32,126 bases of DNA from Thermoleophilia bacterium (GTDB taxonomy: Bacteria; Actinomycetota; Thermoleophilia; Miltoncostaeales; Miltoncostaeaceae), in NCBI GenBank assembly GCA_020848615.1, contig JADLHW010000154.1, positions 1-32,126 on the forward strand. Direction: 5' to 3'. Shown here piece after piece: positions 26,547-32,126 of this stretch (within the stretch, counting starts at the first letter, position 1; each line of letters opens with the position of its first letter). The translations under genes were made by a program, and so were the position numbers. The notes beneath the pieces were generated by a model. That model saw only the letters and a list, made by a program, of their open reading frames with translations, did no database searches and had not been told where the DNA came from.

Positions 26547-29420
26547 ATGAACACCGGGAGGCGCGCGCTCCTCCTGCTGCTGGTGGTGATCGGCCTCACG
26601 GCCGCATCCCTGGTGGCGATCGCCCTCAAGCCGGCCACGCTCGGGCTGGACCTGCAGGGCGGCGTGGAGGTCGTGCTCGAGGGGCGGCAGACCAGCGCCG
26701 AGCAGCCCGTCGACTCCGCGGCGATGAACCGCGCGGTCGAGGTCATCCGGAGCCGCGTCGACGCGTTCGGCGTCGCCGAGCCCGAGATCCAGACCGCCGG
26801 CTCCAACCAGATCGTGGTGGCGCTGCCCGGCGCCGACGACCCCGACCGGGTCGTGAACGACCTCATCAAGCCGGCGCAGCTGTTCTTCTACGACTTCACG
26901 GACAACGTCGTCGACGACACGCCGAACCCGGACCTCTACAAGACGGTCCTGCAGGCGCAGAAGACGAAGATCCAGGACACGTCGCAGGGCTCACAGACGC
27001 TCTACGCGTTCACGAAGGACACCCACCGGCTCGTCGCCGGACCCGTGGTGGTGGGCGTGGAGGCCGGCGCGCGCGAGACGGCGATCCAGGACCTGCGCGA
27101 GCTGGTGCGGGCCGAGGGGACCACCCTGGCGAAGGTCGACGTGGAGGCGGTGCCGAAGGGCCTCACCATCGTCCGGAAGGTCCAGGAGCTCGAGACCCGC
27201 GCGAGCGGCGGCCGGAACACCTACTTCATCTTCCAGGACCGCCCCGGGGTCACCGGCAAGGACATCAGGTCCGCCGACAGCATCCGCGACGTGGGGCAGG
27301 GCCGCACCGGCGAGCCCATCGTGACCATGGAGTTCACGGGCTCCGGATCCGACAAGTTCCACGACATCACCCGCGACCTCGCCCAGCGCGGGGCCGTGCA
27401 GAACACGCTGTTCTCGTTCGCGATCGTGCTGGACGGCGAGCTCATCTCGAACCCCACGATCGACCCGCAGGACCTCCCGGACGGCATCGGCGGCGGCCGC
27501 GCCCAGATCGAGGGCAACTTCACCGCCGAGTCCGCCCGCACCCTGGCCGACCAGATCAACTCCGGCGCCATCCCGGTGCGCCTGGAGGTGGTGAGCCAGA
27601 AGCAGGTGTCCGCGACCCTCGGCAAGGAATCCCTGCGCTCCGGGCTCATCGCCGGCGTCGCGGGCCTCCTGCTGGTCGTCGCGTTCATGATCGTCTACTA
27701 CCGCCTGCTCGGCCTCGTCGCGACGCTGGGCCTGCTCATCTACGCGGCGCTGTTCTACGCCGCCGTGGTGCTGGTGCCCATCACCCTCACGCTGCCCGGC
27801 ATCGCCGGTGTGATCCTCACCATCGGCGTGGCGTCCGACGCCAACGTGGTCATCTTCGAACGCGTGCGGGAGGAGGCCAGGTCGGGCAAGAGCTCCGCGG
27901 CCGCCCTCTCGGCGGGCTACCGCAAGGGCCTCGCCGCGATCATCGACGCGAACGTCGTGACGTTCTTCACGGCGATCATCGTGTTCCTGTTCGCGACCGC
28001 CGGCCCGCGGGGCTTCGCCTTCACGCTCGGTATCGGGGTGCTGCTGTCGCTGCTCACCGCCGTGTTCGCCACGCGGGCGATCTTCGGCGTGCTGGTGGGC
28101 ACCCGGTTCATGCGCGACGAGAAGGCGCTCGCCCTCAACCAGGGCCACGTCTTCAGCGTCGACTGGGTGGGCAAGTGGCGCCTGTGGCTGGTGCTGTCCA
28201 CCATCCCGGTGCTGTTCGGCCTGGGCTGGCTGGGCGTGCAGGGCCTCAACCTGGGCCTCGACTTCGAGTCCGGCACCCGCATCGCGATCACGTACGACAG
28301 GCCGACCACCGAGAACGGCATCCGTGACGTGCTGGCGGCCGAGGGCGTCAACGACGCGAAGATCCAGGCCACCACCGAGAAGGTGGAGGGCAGGGACGTC
28401 GCCGGCTTCCAGATCCAGACCAAGTCGCTGGAGCCGGACGTCCAGCAGAAGATCCTGCGCGACCTCGACACGCGCTTCGGCGCCGAGGTGAGCTCGCTCG
28501 ACCAGGTGGGCCCCACCTTCGGCAAGCAGATCATCCGCAACGCGATCTACGCGGTGATCATCAGCTTCATCATCGTGGCGCTGTACCTGGTCATCCGCTT
28601 CGAGTACAAGCTCGCGCTGCCCGCGATGCTGTCGGTGATCCACGACGTGGCGCTGTGCATCGGCGTCTACGCCGTGCTGGGCAAGGAGGTGACCAGCGCG
28701 ACGGTCGCCGCCCTGCTCACCATCCTCGGGTACTCGCTGTACGACGTGGTGATCGTGTTCGACCGCATCCGGGAGAACGTCCCCCTCATGCGCGGCAAGC
28801 GCTATCGGGACATCGTGAACCTGTCGGTGAACGAGGTGTTCACCCGGTCGCTCATCACCTCCCTCACCACGCTGCTGCCGGTGCTGGCCCTGTACTTCTT
28901 CGGCGGCGACACCCTCCACGACTTCTCATTCGCCCTGCTGGTCGGGATCCTGGCCGGCGGCGTGAGCTCCATCGTCATCGCCGCGCCGCTCGCGGCGTTC
29001 TGGAAGGAGCGGGACCCGGACGAGCAGCGCCGCGCCGCGAAGATCGAGCGCAAGCGGCAGCGGATGATCGCCAGCGACTCCGACGTCGTGGACCTCGCCG
29101 TGCTGGAGCGCGCCGAGAGCGCCCTGGACGACGTCCCCCTGGACCAGAACGCCGGCCTCATCGGCGAGGGCAGCGCATCCATCCCGCCGGAGGAGTCCGT
29201 GGACCCGCGTCCGGTGGAGCTGCCCGCCGGCGCTCCCGCCGCGGTGGTCACCGACGAGGACGAGGCGGACTACGAGCCGCTGGACGCGTCCCCGCCCGGG
29301 GACGGCCAGGACGGCGCGGACGAGGCCGCGGCCCAGCAGGGCCGGCGGATCGACCGCGAGCGTCCCGACCCGGAGCGGCAGCGGCGGCACCAGCAGGTGC
29401 GCCGCAGGAAACGCCGGTAG
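26547..29420 (+). CDS. secDF: Fused SecDF protein-export protein with long hydrophilic tail
   Basis: A 957-residue natural fusion of SecD (about 1-525) and SecF (from about 533). SecD shows the first helix, LGLDLQGGVEVVLEG (near 31-45), the large periplasmic P1 domain, then ASDANVVIFERVREE (about 430-444), with the Asp implicated in proton transport in this family. SecF starts HVFSVDWVGKWRLW, followed by LNLGLDFESGT, and ends its membrane part in LLVGILAGGVSSIVIAAPLAAFW. The last 130 residues are hydrophilic: acidic and Pro/Ala-rich, then a basic end, VRRRKRR. It uses proton-motive force to complete translocation. Many Actinomycetota carry separate secD and secF, so the fusion is of taxonomic interest. 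No frameshift is seen. Confidence 0.96.
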   Translation: MNTGRRALLLLLVVIGLTAASLVAIALKPATLGLDLQGGVEVVLEGRQTSAEQPVDSAAMNRAVEVIRSRVDAFGVAEPEIQTAGSNQIVVALPGADDPDRVVNDLIKPAQLFFYDFTDNVVDDTPNPDLYKTVLQAQKTKIQDTSQGSQTLYAFTKDTHRLVAGPVVVGVEAGARETAIQDLRELVRAEGTTLAKVDVEAVPKGLTIVRKVQELETRASGGRNTYFIFQDRPGVTGKDIRSADSIRDVGQGRTGEPIVTMEFTGSGSDKFHDITRDLAQRGAVQNTLFSFAIVLDGELISNPTIDPQDLPDGIGGGRAQIEGNFTAESARTLADQINSGAIPVRLEVVSQKQVSATLGKESLRSGLIAGVAGLLLVVAFMIVYYRLLGLVATLGLLIYAALFYAAVVLVPITLTLPGIAGVILTIGVASDANVVIFERVREEARSGKSSAAALSAGYRKGLAAIIDANVVTFFTAIIVFLFATAGPRGFAFTLGIGVLLSLLTAVFATRAIFGVLVGTRFMRDEKALALNQGHVFSVDWVGKWRLWLVLSTIPVLFGLGWLGVQGLNLGLDFESGTRIAITYDRPTTENGIRDVLAAEGVNDAKIQATTEKVEGRDVAGFQIQTKSLEPDVQQKILRDLDTRFGAEVSSLDQVGPTFGKQIIRNAIYAVIISFIIVALYLVIRFEYKLALPAMLSVIHDVALCIGVYAVLGKEVTSATVAALLTILGYSLYDVVIVFDRIRENVPLMRGKRYRDIVNLSVNEVFTRSLITSLTTLLPVLALYFFGGDTLHDFSFALLVGILAGGVSSIVIAAPLAAFWKERDPDEQRRAAKIERKRQRMIASDSDVVDLAVLERAESALDDVPLDQNAGLIGEGSASIPPEESVDPRPVELPAGAPAAVVTDEDEADYEPLDASPPGDGQDGADEAAAQQGRRIDRERPDPERQRRHQQVRRRKRR

Positions 29421-29519
29421 CGCCCTCCGCCTAATACCGGCGATCCCCCCGCCGATAACGACCCCAGGCATCCGCATCGGACTGCCGGTGCCGTCGTGAT
29501 CGACCGGAGGACCGCGCGA

Positions 29520-30197
29520 GTGTGGAGCAGGCTTGAGGGTGTTGGCAGGGATGGCGGCGGGACGGCCTCCGCGCGCCGTGTGCCCGAGCCCGCGCCCGCG
29601 ATCCTGAACGAGTGGGTCGCCCCGGCGCAGCCCGTTCACGACCGGGGCGGGCAGACACCCGACGACATGGCCGTGATGGCGGAGTGGTGCGCGGTGGGGT
29701 ACAGCGCCCCGGATCCGCCGTCGCCCGAGCCGGAGGAGATCGACCTGGCGGCGTTCGCCGAGTGGTCGGCCCCCGTGGTCGCCGCCCGCGCCGAGCCCGA
29801 CCTCGCGACCCTGTCGGAGTGGTCGACGATGCCGTCCGGCGCGGTGATCCTGGAGCGTGCGCTGGCGCTGGCCGAGGCCGCCGCGGTGCGCGAGGCGCCG
29901 ATGAGCCGCATCGAGCGCACCCGCGCCGAGGGCACCTTCCAGGTGACCGGCCTGGCCCTGGCCTCCGGGCACCTGGTGTTCGAGGGCATCACCTTCACGC
30001 ACCGCCTGCAGCGGGCCCCGAGGCCCGAGTCGGTGCGGCTCGTGGCCAGCACCGAGGAGAACGTCGCCCCCGGTGGCCTGGTCGTGATGGCCGACAGCGG
30101 TTTCGGGCCGGGCCCGGAGGGGTTCACCCTCGTGCTCGCCGCGGCCGCGCCCGGCCGGTTCCACGCGCGGGGACGCTACGAGGTCGAGCTGAGCTGA
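29520..30197 (+). CDS. Uncharacterised protein with spaced EW motifs
   Basis: A 225-residue protein I do not recognise, with no signal peptide or membrane helix. GTG 29520 is preceded by GGAGG at 29506-29510 with 9-base spacing; an in-frame GTG at 29496 lacks a site, so I prefer 29520. The N-terminal half carries four short motifs, LNEW, MAEW, FAEW and LSEW, spaced about 20-35 residues apart in a Pro/Ala/Asp-rich setting. The C-terminal half (about 135-225) looks folded and beta-rich: GTFQVTGLALASGHLVFEGITFTHRL and later GGLVVMADSGFG and GRFHARGRYEVEL. The next gene also has Trp-centred acidic repeats, hinting at a common role. Coding is supported by codon pattern and ribosome-binding site; the function is unknown. 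Confidence 0.7.
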   Translation: MWSRLEGVGRDGGGTASARRVPEPAPAILNEWVAPAQPVHDRGGQTPDDMAVMAEWCAVGYSAPDPPSPEPEEIDLAAFAEWSAPVVAARAEPDLATLSEWSTMPSGAVILERALALAEAAAVREAPMSRIERTRAEGTFQVTGLALASGHLVFEGITFTHRLQRAPRPESVRLVASTEENVAPGGLVVMADSGFGPGPEGFTLVLAAAAPGRFHARGRYEVELS

Positions 30198-30272
30198 ACG
30201 CACCGGGCGCCAGCCGCCCGTCACGGAGGGGTCGCGACGCCGGACGGCGCCGACCCGGAACCCTGACCGTTG

Positions 30273-30291
30273 GCCGCCCCGGACGGGCGGC
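30273..30291 (+). terminator. Hairpin in the gap before the repeat-protein gene
   Basis: A perfect 7-base stem (GCCGCCC / GGGCGGC) with a 5-base loop lies about 75 bases past the preceding stop and 40 before the next ATG. No T-tract follows. It may end transcription of the upstream gene or be a leader structure of the downstream one. Confidence 0.35.
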
Positions 30292-30330
30292 AGTTCGCCC
30301 CTCGGACGAGGGTGCATGGAGGCCCTGAGG

Positions 30331-32126
30331 ATGATGAGCACGATGAACCTCGCACTGGTCGCCGGTGTCGCCGCCCTCCTGGTGGTGCTGCTGGTGATGC
30401 GGCGCAACACCGCGGACGGCGGCTCCTCGCCGAAGTCCGCGAAGGCGTCCGCGGTGAAGGTGCCCAAGGTGAAGGCCGTGAAGGAGCCGAAGGCCGGCAA
30501 GGCCCGCCGCGTGAAGCCGGTGAAGGCCGAGAAGCCCGTGAGGGCCCCGCGTTCGCGCGGCCGCCGTCGCGGCGCCGAGGCCGTGCCCGTCGCGGCGGCC
30601 GCCGGCATCCCGGAGGCCGAGCAGGTGACCGGCGAGTTCGGCCTGCCGACCGCCCCGGTGCCGGGCGAGCCCGACTGGGACGCCATGCGCGCCGCGCTGA
30701 ACGGCGTGGAGGTGCCGGAGCCGGTGACCGCCGAGACGGCCGTCACCGCCGAGGCCGCGCCCGTCGCGGGTGCGGTGCCGGTGGCCGGCGCGGAGGCGCC
30801 CGAGGACGCCTGGGACGACGAGGCGCTCATCACCGAGCCGGGCTGGCCGCTGCCCGGTGACATGGACGGCGGATGGGAGGACGGCGGGGAGCACGCGTTC
30901 GACACGACCCCGGCCCCCGAGGCGCCCGCCGCCGAGACCTGGCTGGGACAGGCGCCGGCCGCACCCGAGCCCGAGGCGGAGGCCGAGCCCGAGGCCGAGC
31001 ACGACGCCATGTGGGCGCCCGACCCGGCCGACGCGTGGAAGGCCGCCAAGGAGGCCGACGCGCCCACCGGCGACGCCGTGGCCCCGCAGGCCGACGCCTC
31101 CGAGGACGCCGCCTGGACCGGCGGCGGCTGGAACGCCGATGCCGAGCCGCGGGACGAGGCCGGCGACATGGCCGCCGAGGCCCTGGACAAGCCGTCGTGG
31201 AACGACATCCCGGTGACCGCCGAGGCCGAGCCCGTCACGGACTGGGACGCCCAGGCCTGGTCCCCGCCCGTCGCGGACGAGACCCCCTCGATCGGCTCCT
31301 GGGACGCACCGGCCGACCCCGTCGCCGAGGAGACCCCGTCGATCGGCTCCTGGGACGCACCCGCCGAGCCCCTCGCCGAGGAGACCTCCTCGATCGGCTC
31401 CTGGGACGCACCGGCCGAGCCGGTCGCCGAGGAGACCCCCGCCATCGGATCCTGGGACGCCGGCTGGGAGACCCCGGCCGGCGACGCCCCGGAGGCCGGG
31501 CCCGCCGATGAGCCGTCGCCCTGGGCGACGGGCGACGGGACCCCGGCCGCCGAGGCCGATCCGGGCCTGGTGGGCGCCGGCGCCGAATCCGCCGCCACCC
31601 TCGCCCCGGAGGCGCCGGTGGAGCACCTCACCGCCCAGGACGACCTGAGCGCGCAGGAGCCGGCCGACTCGTGGGCCCCGGCCGCGGACGACGCCTGGGC
31701 GTCGGCCATCGCCGAGGCCACCCCTCCGGTGACCTCCTGGAACGTCGACGACCCGGACGAGTGGGCGCCCCGGCCGGAGGAAGCTCCCGAGGCCGTCGCG
31801 CCGAGCGCCGAGCCCGAGGCCGAGGTCGCCCCGGCACCGGAGGCCGAGGTGGCCCCGGACCCGGAGCCCGAGGTGGTCGTGGAGCCCGCGGCCGAGGTGA
31901 TCGCGGAGCCCGAGGCCGAGGTGGTCGCCGAGCCGGCGGCCGAGGCCGCGCCGGTCGTCGAGACGGTCATCGAGGTGCCGGGCGCCGAGGCCACCGCATC
32001 GCCGGTCGCCGACGCCGCGGCACCCGTCACGGCGCCCGCGGACGGCCTGGCGTGGTGGGACGACGTCGAGCCCGACGCGTCCGACATCCTCGTCGACGAG
32101 ACCCCCGACTGGATGCGCGGGCAGGG
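30331..32126 (+). CDS. Membrane-anchored acidic low-complexity protein with Trp-centred repeats (partial)
   Basis: The frame stays open from ATG 30331 to the window end (598 residues visible, C-terminus missing). GGAGG at 30318-30322 sits 8 bases before this ATG; ATG 30316 is an in-frame alternative. A short N-terminus leads to one membrane helix (about residues 5-23, LALVAGVAALLVVLLVM), then a Lys/Arg/Pro/Ala-rich stretch (about 24-80, with KVKAVKEPKAGKARRVKPVKAEKP), which by the positive-inside rule places the long remainder in the cytosol. The remainder is strongly acidic, Ala/Pro/Glu-rich and probably disordered, punctuated by Trp in motifs such as DAWDD, GSWDAP, DSWAP and DEWAP, including a 17-residue tandem repeat at 31270-31461. 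I know no family for it; a scaffold or envelope-associated role is only a guess. Confidence 0.75.
   Translation, partial: MMSTMNLALVAGVAALLVVLLVMRRNTADGGSSPKSAKASAVKVPKVKAVKEPKAGKARRVKPVKAEKPVRAPRSRGRRRGAEAVPVAAAAGIPEAEQVTGEFGLPTAPVPGEPDWDAMRAALNGVEVPEPVTAETAVTAEAAPVAGAVPVAGAEAPEDAWDDEALITEPGWPLPGDMDGGWEDGGEHAFDTTPAPEAPAAETWLGQAPAAPEPEAEAEPEAEHDAMWAPDPADAWKAAKEADAPTGDAVAPQADASEDAAWTGGGWNADAEPRDEAGDMAAEALDKPSWNDIPVTAEAEPVTDWDAQAWSPPVADETPSIGSWDAPADPVAEETPSIGSWDAPAEPLAEETSSIGSWDAPAEPVAEETPAIGSWDAGWETPAGDAPEAGPADEPSPWATGDGTPAAEADPGLVGAGAESAATLAPEAPVEHLTAQDDLSAQEPADSWAPAADDAWASAIAEATPPVTSWNVDDPDEWAPRPEEAPEAVAPSAEPEAEVAPAPEAEVAPDPEPEVVVEPAAEVIAEPEAEVVAEPAAEAAPVVETVIEVPGAEATASPVADAAAPVTAPADGLAWWDDVEPDASDILVDETPDWMRGQ
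31270..31461 (+). repeat. 51-bp tandem repeat, 3.8 copies, in coding sequence
   Basis: Copies begin at 31270, 31321, 31372 and 31423 and encode variants of a 17-residue unit, VAEETPSIGSWDAPAEP; the fourth stops at GSWDA. The period is a multiple of three, so copy-number change would keep the frame. The first three copies are nearly identical in DNA, which suggests recent duplication and possible length variation between strains. Confidence 0.85.

Follow-up and report, generated by a model that had tools for sequence, protein, structure and literature searches.

Two adjacent genes with a homologous C-terminal domain

The window, a 32126-nucleotide stretch of DNA from a Thermoleophilia bacterium (genome G000), is the entire contig C154 of a 3.64 Mb assembly in 183 contigs. 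Near its end, two genes that we refer to as A and B follow each other on the plus strand, directly 3' of a fused secDF gene. Gene A (29496 to 30197, GTG start) encodes a protein of 233 amino acids (aa), which in this genus is without a membrane helix. Gene B is open at the window end, with its first 603 codons at 30316 to 32126. The original prediction for this region described two adjacent proteins with Trp-acid motifs, and both the frames and the motifs were confirmed.

The remainder of B was found on contig C36. Positions 31746 to 32126 (plus strand) overlap that contig with 376 of 381 bases identical, and the frame continues on the C36 minus strand from position 107851 downwards to a stop codon, supplying the C-terminus that had been listed as missing: a beta-domain of about 95 residues. 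The 5 mismatches in the 381-base overlap suggest strain variation within a metagenome assembly. Beyond the stop, C36 carries UbiB/AarF-like, RecJ, and RelA/SpoT genes, named by eye from their translations. A single contig of a near relative, Ga0077560 (L047, contig G001:C102), has the same order, with secDF before A and B and the UbiB, RecJ, and RelA/SpoT genes after them. This organism appears as 'Thermoleophilia Ga0077560' in PMC10994693.

When the B domain was compared with the C-terminal part of A, BLASTP returned an E value of 6e-17 and 39% identity over 97 columns. The domain of A spans 29922 to 30194 (plus strand), from about residue 143, and was modelled as antiparallel strands with a predicted local distance difference test (pLDDT) score of 68.7. 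Because their C-terminal domains are homologous, we regard A and B as paralogues. The domain, encoded outside the window in the case of B, is their true link. Five columns were invariant in an alignment of 28 domains taken from this and related genomes (without G023_B, G019_A, G019_B, G001_A, and G000_B), and A and B were the sole copies in their own genome at E<=0.001. In a tree of 30 domains, B, C (a third gene described below), and the single copies of G002 and G003 were split from the A rows by a 100/100 branch; the A rows were poorly resolved, and the placement of the long-branch G008 copy was unsure. From this split, the duplication that gave rise to A and B looks older than the genera.

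Ratios of nonsynonymous to synonymous substitution rates (dN/dS), calculated for one pair only (the window and Ga0077560) with a Nei-Gojobori-style script, were 0.07 for the A domain and 0.20 for the B domain, compared to 0.23 for SecDF, 0.24 for the whole of A, 0.34 for the N-terminal part of A, and 0.56 for the poorly alignable B linker. The domains are under strong constraint and the linker under weak constraint. Both genes were conserved in related genomes, and the C-terminus of B is not a well-known domain, two points on which the original prediction could have failed. There was no significant Pfam or NCBIfam match to A, to B within the window, to its continuation on C36, or to the domains, and a search of PDB sequences with the 28-row profile gave a best E value of 0.77. 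Our literature search found no published work on genes of this type, on secDF or intrinsic disorder in Thermoleophilia, or on disordered, membrane-anchored H-type lectins of actinobacteria, and the matches listed for membrane-anchored MarR proteins were on other topics. We consider A and B a real, conserved, and unnamed gene pair.

Motifs, membrane anchor, and linker

The N-terminal part of A, which is probably disordered, contains four xxEW motifs at 29604 to 29822 on the plus strand: LNEW (residues 37-40), MAEW (61-64), FAEW (87-90), and LSEW (106-109). They are spaced 24, 26, and 19 residues apart, with the fuller D(L/M)AxxxEW present in 3 of 4, so that A has the motifs and the folded C-terminal part that had been described for it. 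An acidic residue directly adjoins all 4 Trp residues, compared to 1.2 expected from shuffling (p=0.009). In other genera, too, A contains the fuller motif DLAxLxEW, and similar motifs occur in A of G001, G005, G019, G022, and G025. The xxxEW pattern that we used was counted 4 times in A of this genome, 4 in G001, 2 in G025, 4 in G005, 5 in G022, and 6 in G019, with 1 or 2 each in G015, G007, and G010; it was not matched in A of G012, G020, or G023. An N-terminal-proximal membrane helix was present in A of G012, G015, G019, G007, G010, and G025 (the last by eye).

B begins with a single membrane helix (30346 to 30399, residues 11-28, plus strand as for all features of B), followed by a Lys/Arg-rich stretch of 58 residues (30400 to 30573, residues 29-86) and, from its composition, an acidic, Ala/Pro-rich linker with 25 Trp that fills the rest of the window (30574 to 32126). 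Within the linker, GSWD recurs every 17 residues, in four repeats (31294-31458), and the sequence AWWDDVEPD lies at 32050-32076. The layout originally read from the sequence, with one membrane helix, a basic stretch, and an acidic tail with GSWD motifs, was therefore correct. The break between C154 and C36 sits inside this low-complexity linker. In Ga0077560, the B frame is interrupted after the membrane helix and before the basic stretch (L047 4355-4560), with the helix encoded in another frame; the interruption may be real or an error in the record.

The comparison covered 13 B-type frames from relatives in which the 5' end is intact (G001 was not counted, and G013 and G016 were truncated). 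Twelve of the 13, all but that of G002, have a hydrophobic N-terminal helix in frame with the domain (mean hydropathy 2.28-3.05) and 5-14 Lys or Arg within the 30 residues after it, which by the positive-inside rule should place the linker and domain in the cytosol. A conserved linear motif, LITEPGWPLPGDMDGGW in B (30826 to 30876), has the consensus ITEPGWPxPGDxDxxW (PGWP motif) and was found in 14 of the 15 B-type frames that are not truncated, being absent from G002 and diverged in G007. Its position varies, 96-238 residues past the helix and 112-532 ahead of the domain, and when linkers of different genera were paired, it was the top 16-residue match in 68 of 82 pairs, with G007 involved in 11 of the 14 exceptions. 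A relation of the motif to DUF2510 was considered and dropped, as there was no such Pfam match.

The rest of the linker behaved differently. In B, an acidic residue directly adjoins 12 of 25 Trp, not above the 10.4 expected from shuffling (p=0.34), and 25 of 27 aromatics have an acid within 3 residues compared to 21.5 expected (p=0.074). Of 14 B linkers, 8 exceeded shuffles in the latter measure (p<=0.05); that of this genome was not among them. Across B-type linkers, net charge ranges from -0.13 to -0.25 per residue and aromatic content from 3.8 to 9.1 per 100 residues, and the main aromatic differs by lineage: Trp in g1 and g10, Tyr with Trp in 3 of 4 g12 genomes, and Phe in G004. Because the A motif and the PGWP motif differ, and Trp-acid adjacency in B follows composition, the shared Trp-acid spacing from which a relation between A and B was originally proposed does not amount to one motif. 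The relation itself is supported, through the homologous C-terminal domain and the mostly paired genes.

A search with a profile of the PGWP motif led to the same N-terminal module on other heads. Two proteins, L136 (G019:C182 near 9428) and L137 (G025:C1 near 1346760), have a helix, a basic stretch, the motif as IVEPGWPLPGEIxxxW, and an acidic/aromatic linker, and end in a winged helix that matched MarR_2 over the cut-off (E 8e-10 and 5e-11). No common gene context of the two was apparent by eye. A third protein, L139 (G007:C100 near 20712), is a 710-aa frame with a helix, a basic stretch, a PGWP-like motif, and a very acidic linker, in which no head domain was recognised. Matches to this profile were inspected down to G001:C115, a different protein without B-like architecture, which was set aside. 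A second motif profile matched 13 of the 42 genomes returned by the family search at E<1e-5, and 13 of the 13 also carry the domain. As MarR winged helices on this N-terminal module should face the cytosol, these proteins support a cytosolic C-terminus for B. That MarR-headed proteins carry the PGWP motif points to a membrane-targeting module that can be transferred.

Distribution, gene neighbourhood, and origin of the domain

Among this genome and 60 relatives, the domain was found in 17 of 61 genomes, all within the 37 of the same family; it was absent from those of other families (0 of 24) and from genus g9 (0 of 15). When 399 genomes of the class were searched, 19 matched the domain, comprising 18 of the family and G266, where the match is a secreted protein. 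A search of 396 genomes of the phylum gave 6 matches, all of the family. Scaffold-type copies were thus found only in one Thermoleophilia family among the genomes searched.

Where the contig of a relative includes both secDF and ubiB, the domain genes are located between the two (12 of 12 loci), and five one-sided loci were concordant. The original prediction placed the pair beside SecDF, and this holds for gene position; a functional link to SecDF is a putative one, suggested only by that position. The number of copies varies: G002 and G003 have a single copy, G004 and G015 have a third, and in G008 a single divergent copy lies between secDF and recJ, as a minimal frame of 182 aa that lacks the long linker. 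The third gene, C (L052 of G004, L051 of G015), lies between B and ubiB; it encodes its own membrane helix and the domain and forms its own clade (100/100) on a long branch. Elsewhere, the slot between secDF and ubiB holds a phasin-like small protein (g9 and f4; L096, L097, L104) or a small membrane protein (f5 and f7), both named by eye. Since the same slot exists with other genes, A and B look like a gain in a pre-existing neighbourhood.

The secDF gene of the window (26547 to 29420, plus strand), supported by synteny, ends about 75 bases before A and encodes a long C-terminal tail ending in RRHQQVRRRKRR. SecDF of the A/B-bearing family has an acidic, probably disordered C-terminal tail with a basic end like RRHxQVRRRKRR (window 29100-29420; L062, L063, L094, L096, L097, L099), and in other families of the class the basic ends are shorter. 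Third-position guanine-cytosine content is 0.944 in A and 0.962 in B, similar to the 0.983 of the neighbouring SecDF gene. Long minus-strand frames across A and B were set aside because codon bias and conservation belong to the plus frames. Around A and B, neither promoter-like nor terminator-like sites were detected.

The secreted G266 match, which has a signal-like N-terminus, connected the domain to a wider group. Nine of 199 class genomes contain relatives of the G266 domain, among them two (G002 and G020) from the family of the window. These secreted heads (L143-L149, L151) contain Cys, mostly end in (G/S/A)xWAVTAP, and had signal-like starts in those inspected; collagen repeats exceeded the Pfam cut-off in 2 of 3 of the secreted proteins scanned. 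Aligned by hhalign, the 28 domains and 9 domains from secreted proteins gave Prob 94.5%, E 8e-8, and a score of 46.5 over 98 columns (L150 was excluded, its domain being unclear, and L152-L154 were not inspected). None of 150 block-shuffled profiles reached this score (maximum 26.1), nor did any of 150 reach the 46.0 obtained without G266. This comparison ties the A/B domain, over most of its length, to the heads of secreted, partly collagen-like Thermoleophilia proteins as a homologue. B itself does not show their export signature, with basic residues after its helix, an acidic linker, and no collagen match.

Structure models were built from three sequences; that of the B-type domain, from the Ga0077560 orthologue, was mainly beta (pLDDT 64.5), with antiparallel strands as in A. 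H-type lectin folds, the family of discoidin and SLL-2, topped the VIA-align lists of both models and the Foldseek list of B, although not significantly. For these low-pLDDT models, the best H-type lectin scores in VIA-align were Z 7.9 (root-mean-square deviation 2.7, 92 residues aligned) and Z 5.3 (3.6, 86 aligned). Foldseek gave no match at E<0.001 for either model, and the A list was headed by a phage tailspike. Neither the 28 domains nor any of the 199 class genomes matched PF09458 over the cut-off. A profile comparison with H_lectin, built from 10 of 11 loci (L121 was dropped for in-frame stops), gave a weak link in similar register to the 28-domain profile (Prob 14%), scoring above 200 of 200 shuffles; its score was reached by 5 of 200 shuffles with an A-only profile and by 2 of 200 with a B-only profile. 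H-type lectin identity is the strongest structural lead and is unproven, with Z<8 and the Foldseek and profile scores below accepted thresholds.

A possible membrane scaffold and its alternatives

Our proposal, at about even odds, is a cytosolic scaffold specific to this lineage and held at the inner face of the membrane, with the paralogues A and B as its subunits. B would be oriented N-out/C-in as a cytosol-facing tether. The C-terminal domains of A and B may self-associate, perhaps as trimers like the related collagen-stalk heads (collagen stalks are trimeric), in which case soluble A would be recruited to membrane-anchored B. A partner could dock at the PGWP motif and at the motifs of A, and the acid-plus-aromatic linker might work as a multivalent chain of spacers and stickers to concentrate clients, for which the Sec translocon, ribosomes, or a division or polar component are candidates. 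A disordered cytosolic scaffold at the membrane had already been suggested for this pair. That suggestion is still the preferred one and is strengthened by the helix followed by Lys and Arg in 12 of 13 frames and by the MarR-headed paralogues, and not by the Trp-acid spacing originally given as its reason. Also in favour of the scaffold are the homologous domains and their relation to the secreted heads, the constant gene order, the contrast in constraint between domains and linker, a PGWP motif that is retained at varying distances from the domain, the main aromatics that vary by genus with acids nearby in 8 of 14 linkers, and the comparable linker and C-terminal oligomerisation domain of the bacterial scaffold PopZ.

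Several observations weigh against this scaffold. All 15 genus g9 genomes manage without the domain, and the linker and the A/B pairing are dispensable in places, since G002 and G003 have a single copy and G008 a minimal frame. The split between soluble A and anchored B is not general, because A has a membrane helix in several other genera. The case for oligomerisation draws on distant relatives and a low-confidence fold. Only 4 of 14 B linkers had evenly spaced aromatics (p<=0.02); three come from one genus (g12), and that of this genome is not one of the four (p=0.76).

Other explanations fit parts of these data. Given their constant place beside secDF (12 of 12 loci with both flanks), A and B could be accessories of the Sec translocon, with B tethering ribosomes or nascent chains near SecDF through the basic stretch after its helix, and A assisting; the SecDF of the family is itself basic-tailed. 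We consider this unlikely, as the MarR-headed paralogues with the same N-terminal module are located elsewhere, and as unrelated genes fill the slot in g9, f4, f5, and f7 while secDF persists there without A and B, so that the neighbourhood may be positional only. It is distinctly unlikely that only the anchor and domain matter and that the Trp motifs of these proteins, as rapidly evolving low-complexity sequences, carry no specific meaning. Trp-acid adjacency in B at the level of composition, the linker dN/dS of 0.56, and the near absence of a linker in G008 would fit such proteins, but the PGWP motif is kept in 14 of 15 untruncated frames and gives the best match between linkers in 68 of the 82 pairs of different genera, and DLAxLxEW recurs in A.

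A membrane tether for nucleic acid, in which the Lys/Ala/Pro stretch of B binds DNA or RNA and holds the nucleoid or RNA at the membrane, appears very unlikely. This stretch resembles histone-H1-like tails, and the MarR-headed relatives have the same module; however, the stretch is short in G012, G005, and G003, and no clear nucleic-acid-binding relative was near the top of the structure lists for the beta-domain. Cell-surface display, with the beta-domain exported like its secreted relatives and possibly binding sugars through an H-type-lectin-like fold, would account for the homology to secreted heads and for the H-type lectin folds that lead both VIA-align lists. It is highly improbable given the positive residues after the B helix, the MarR winged helices on the N-terminal module of two paralogues, and the weak H_lectin profile link; the Cys of the secreted domains are also mostly absent from A and B, although B keeps one.

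The scaffold proposed for A and B might be one case of a modular class of membrane-tethered disordered scaffolds. Such a class would combine a common anchor (helix, basic stretch, PGWP motif, and acidic/aromatic linker) with exchangeable heads (the beta-domain with its extracellular collagen-stalk relatives, or a MarR winged helix) and a soluble paralogue joined by head-head association, forming a condensate-like cytosolic layer beside the Sec machinery; we regard this extension as doubtful. The analysis defines an unnamed domain family and a short conserved motif. If the scaffold reading is true, a head domain of extracellular type would have become a module of cytosolic assembly in a bacterial lineage, and the change of the main linker aromatic (Trp, Tyr, or Phe) between genera would be a natural experiment in which the function of a disordered linker is kept despite sequence change.

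The layout of B is like that of ZipA, an Escherichia coli division protein for which PMC5651908 describes a short N-terminal membrane segment, a flexible unstructured linker, and a C-terminal interaction domain; the flexibility of the B linker is judged from its composition. Unlike ZipA, B has a C-terminal domain predicted to be all-beta, a linker that is acidic and aromatic, and a paired paralogue, A, and its pieces did not match the ZipA family model in Pfam or NCBIfam. B-type linkers are also similar in composition to that of the Caulobacter polar scaffold PopZ, which PMC9512792 describes as acidic and Pro-rich, with a net charge of -0.28 per residue and a helical C-terminal oligomerisation domain. 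B differs from PopZ in its membrane helix, its PGWP motif, and a domain that is mainly beta in a low-confidence model. A and B are members of neither ZipA nor PopZ. Galectins with aromatic tails are eukaryotic and not membrane-anchored. According to PMC12979664, the disordered regions of vertebrate galectins are alike in composition while the type of aromatic varies by lineage, a change that parallels the use of Trp, Tyr, and Phe in the B linkers.

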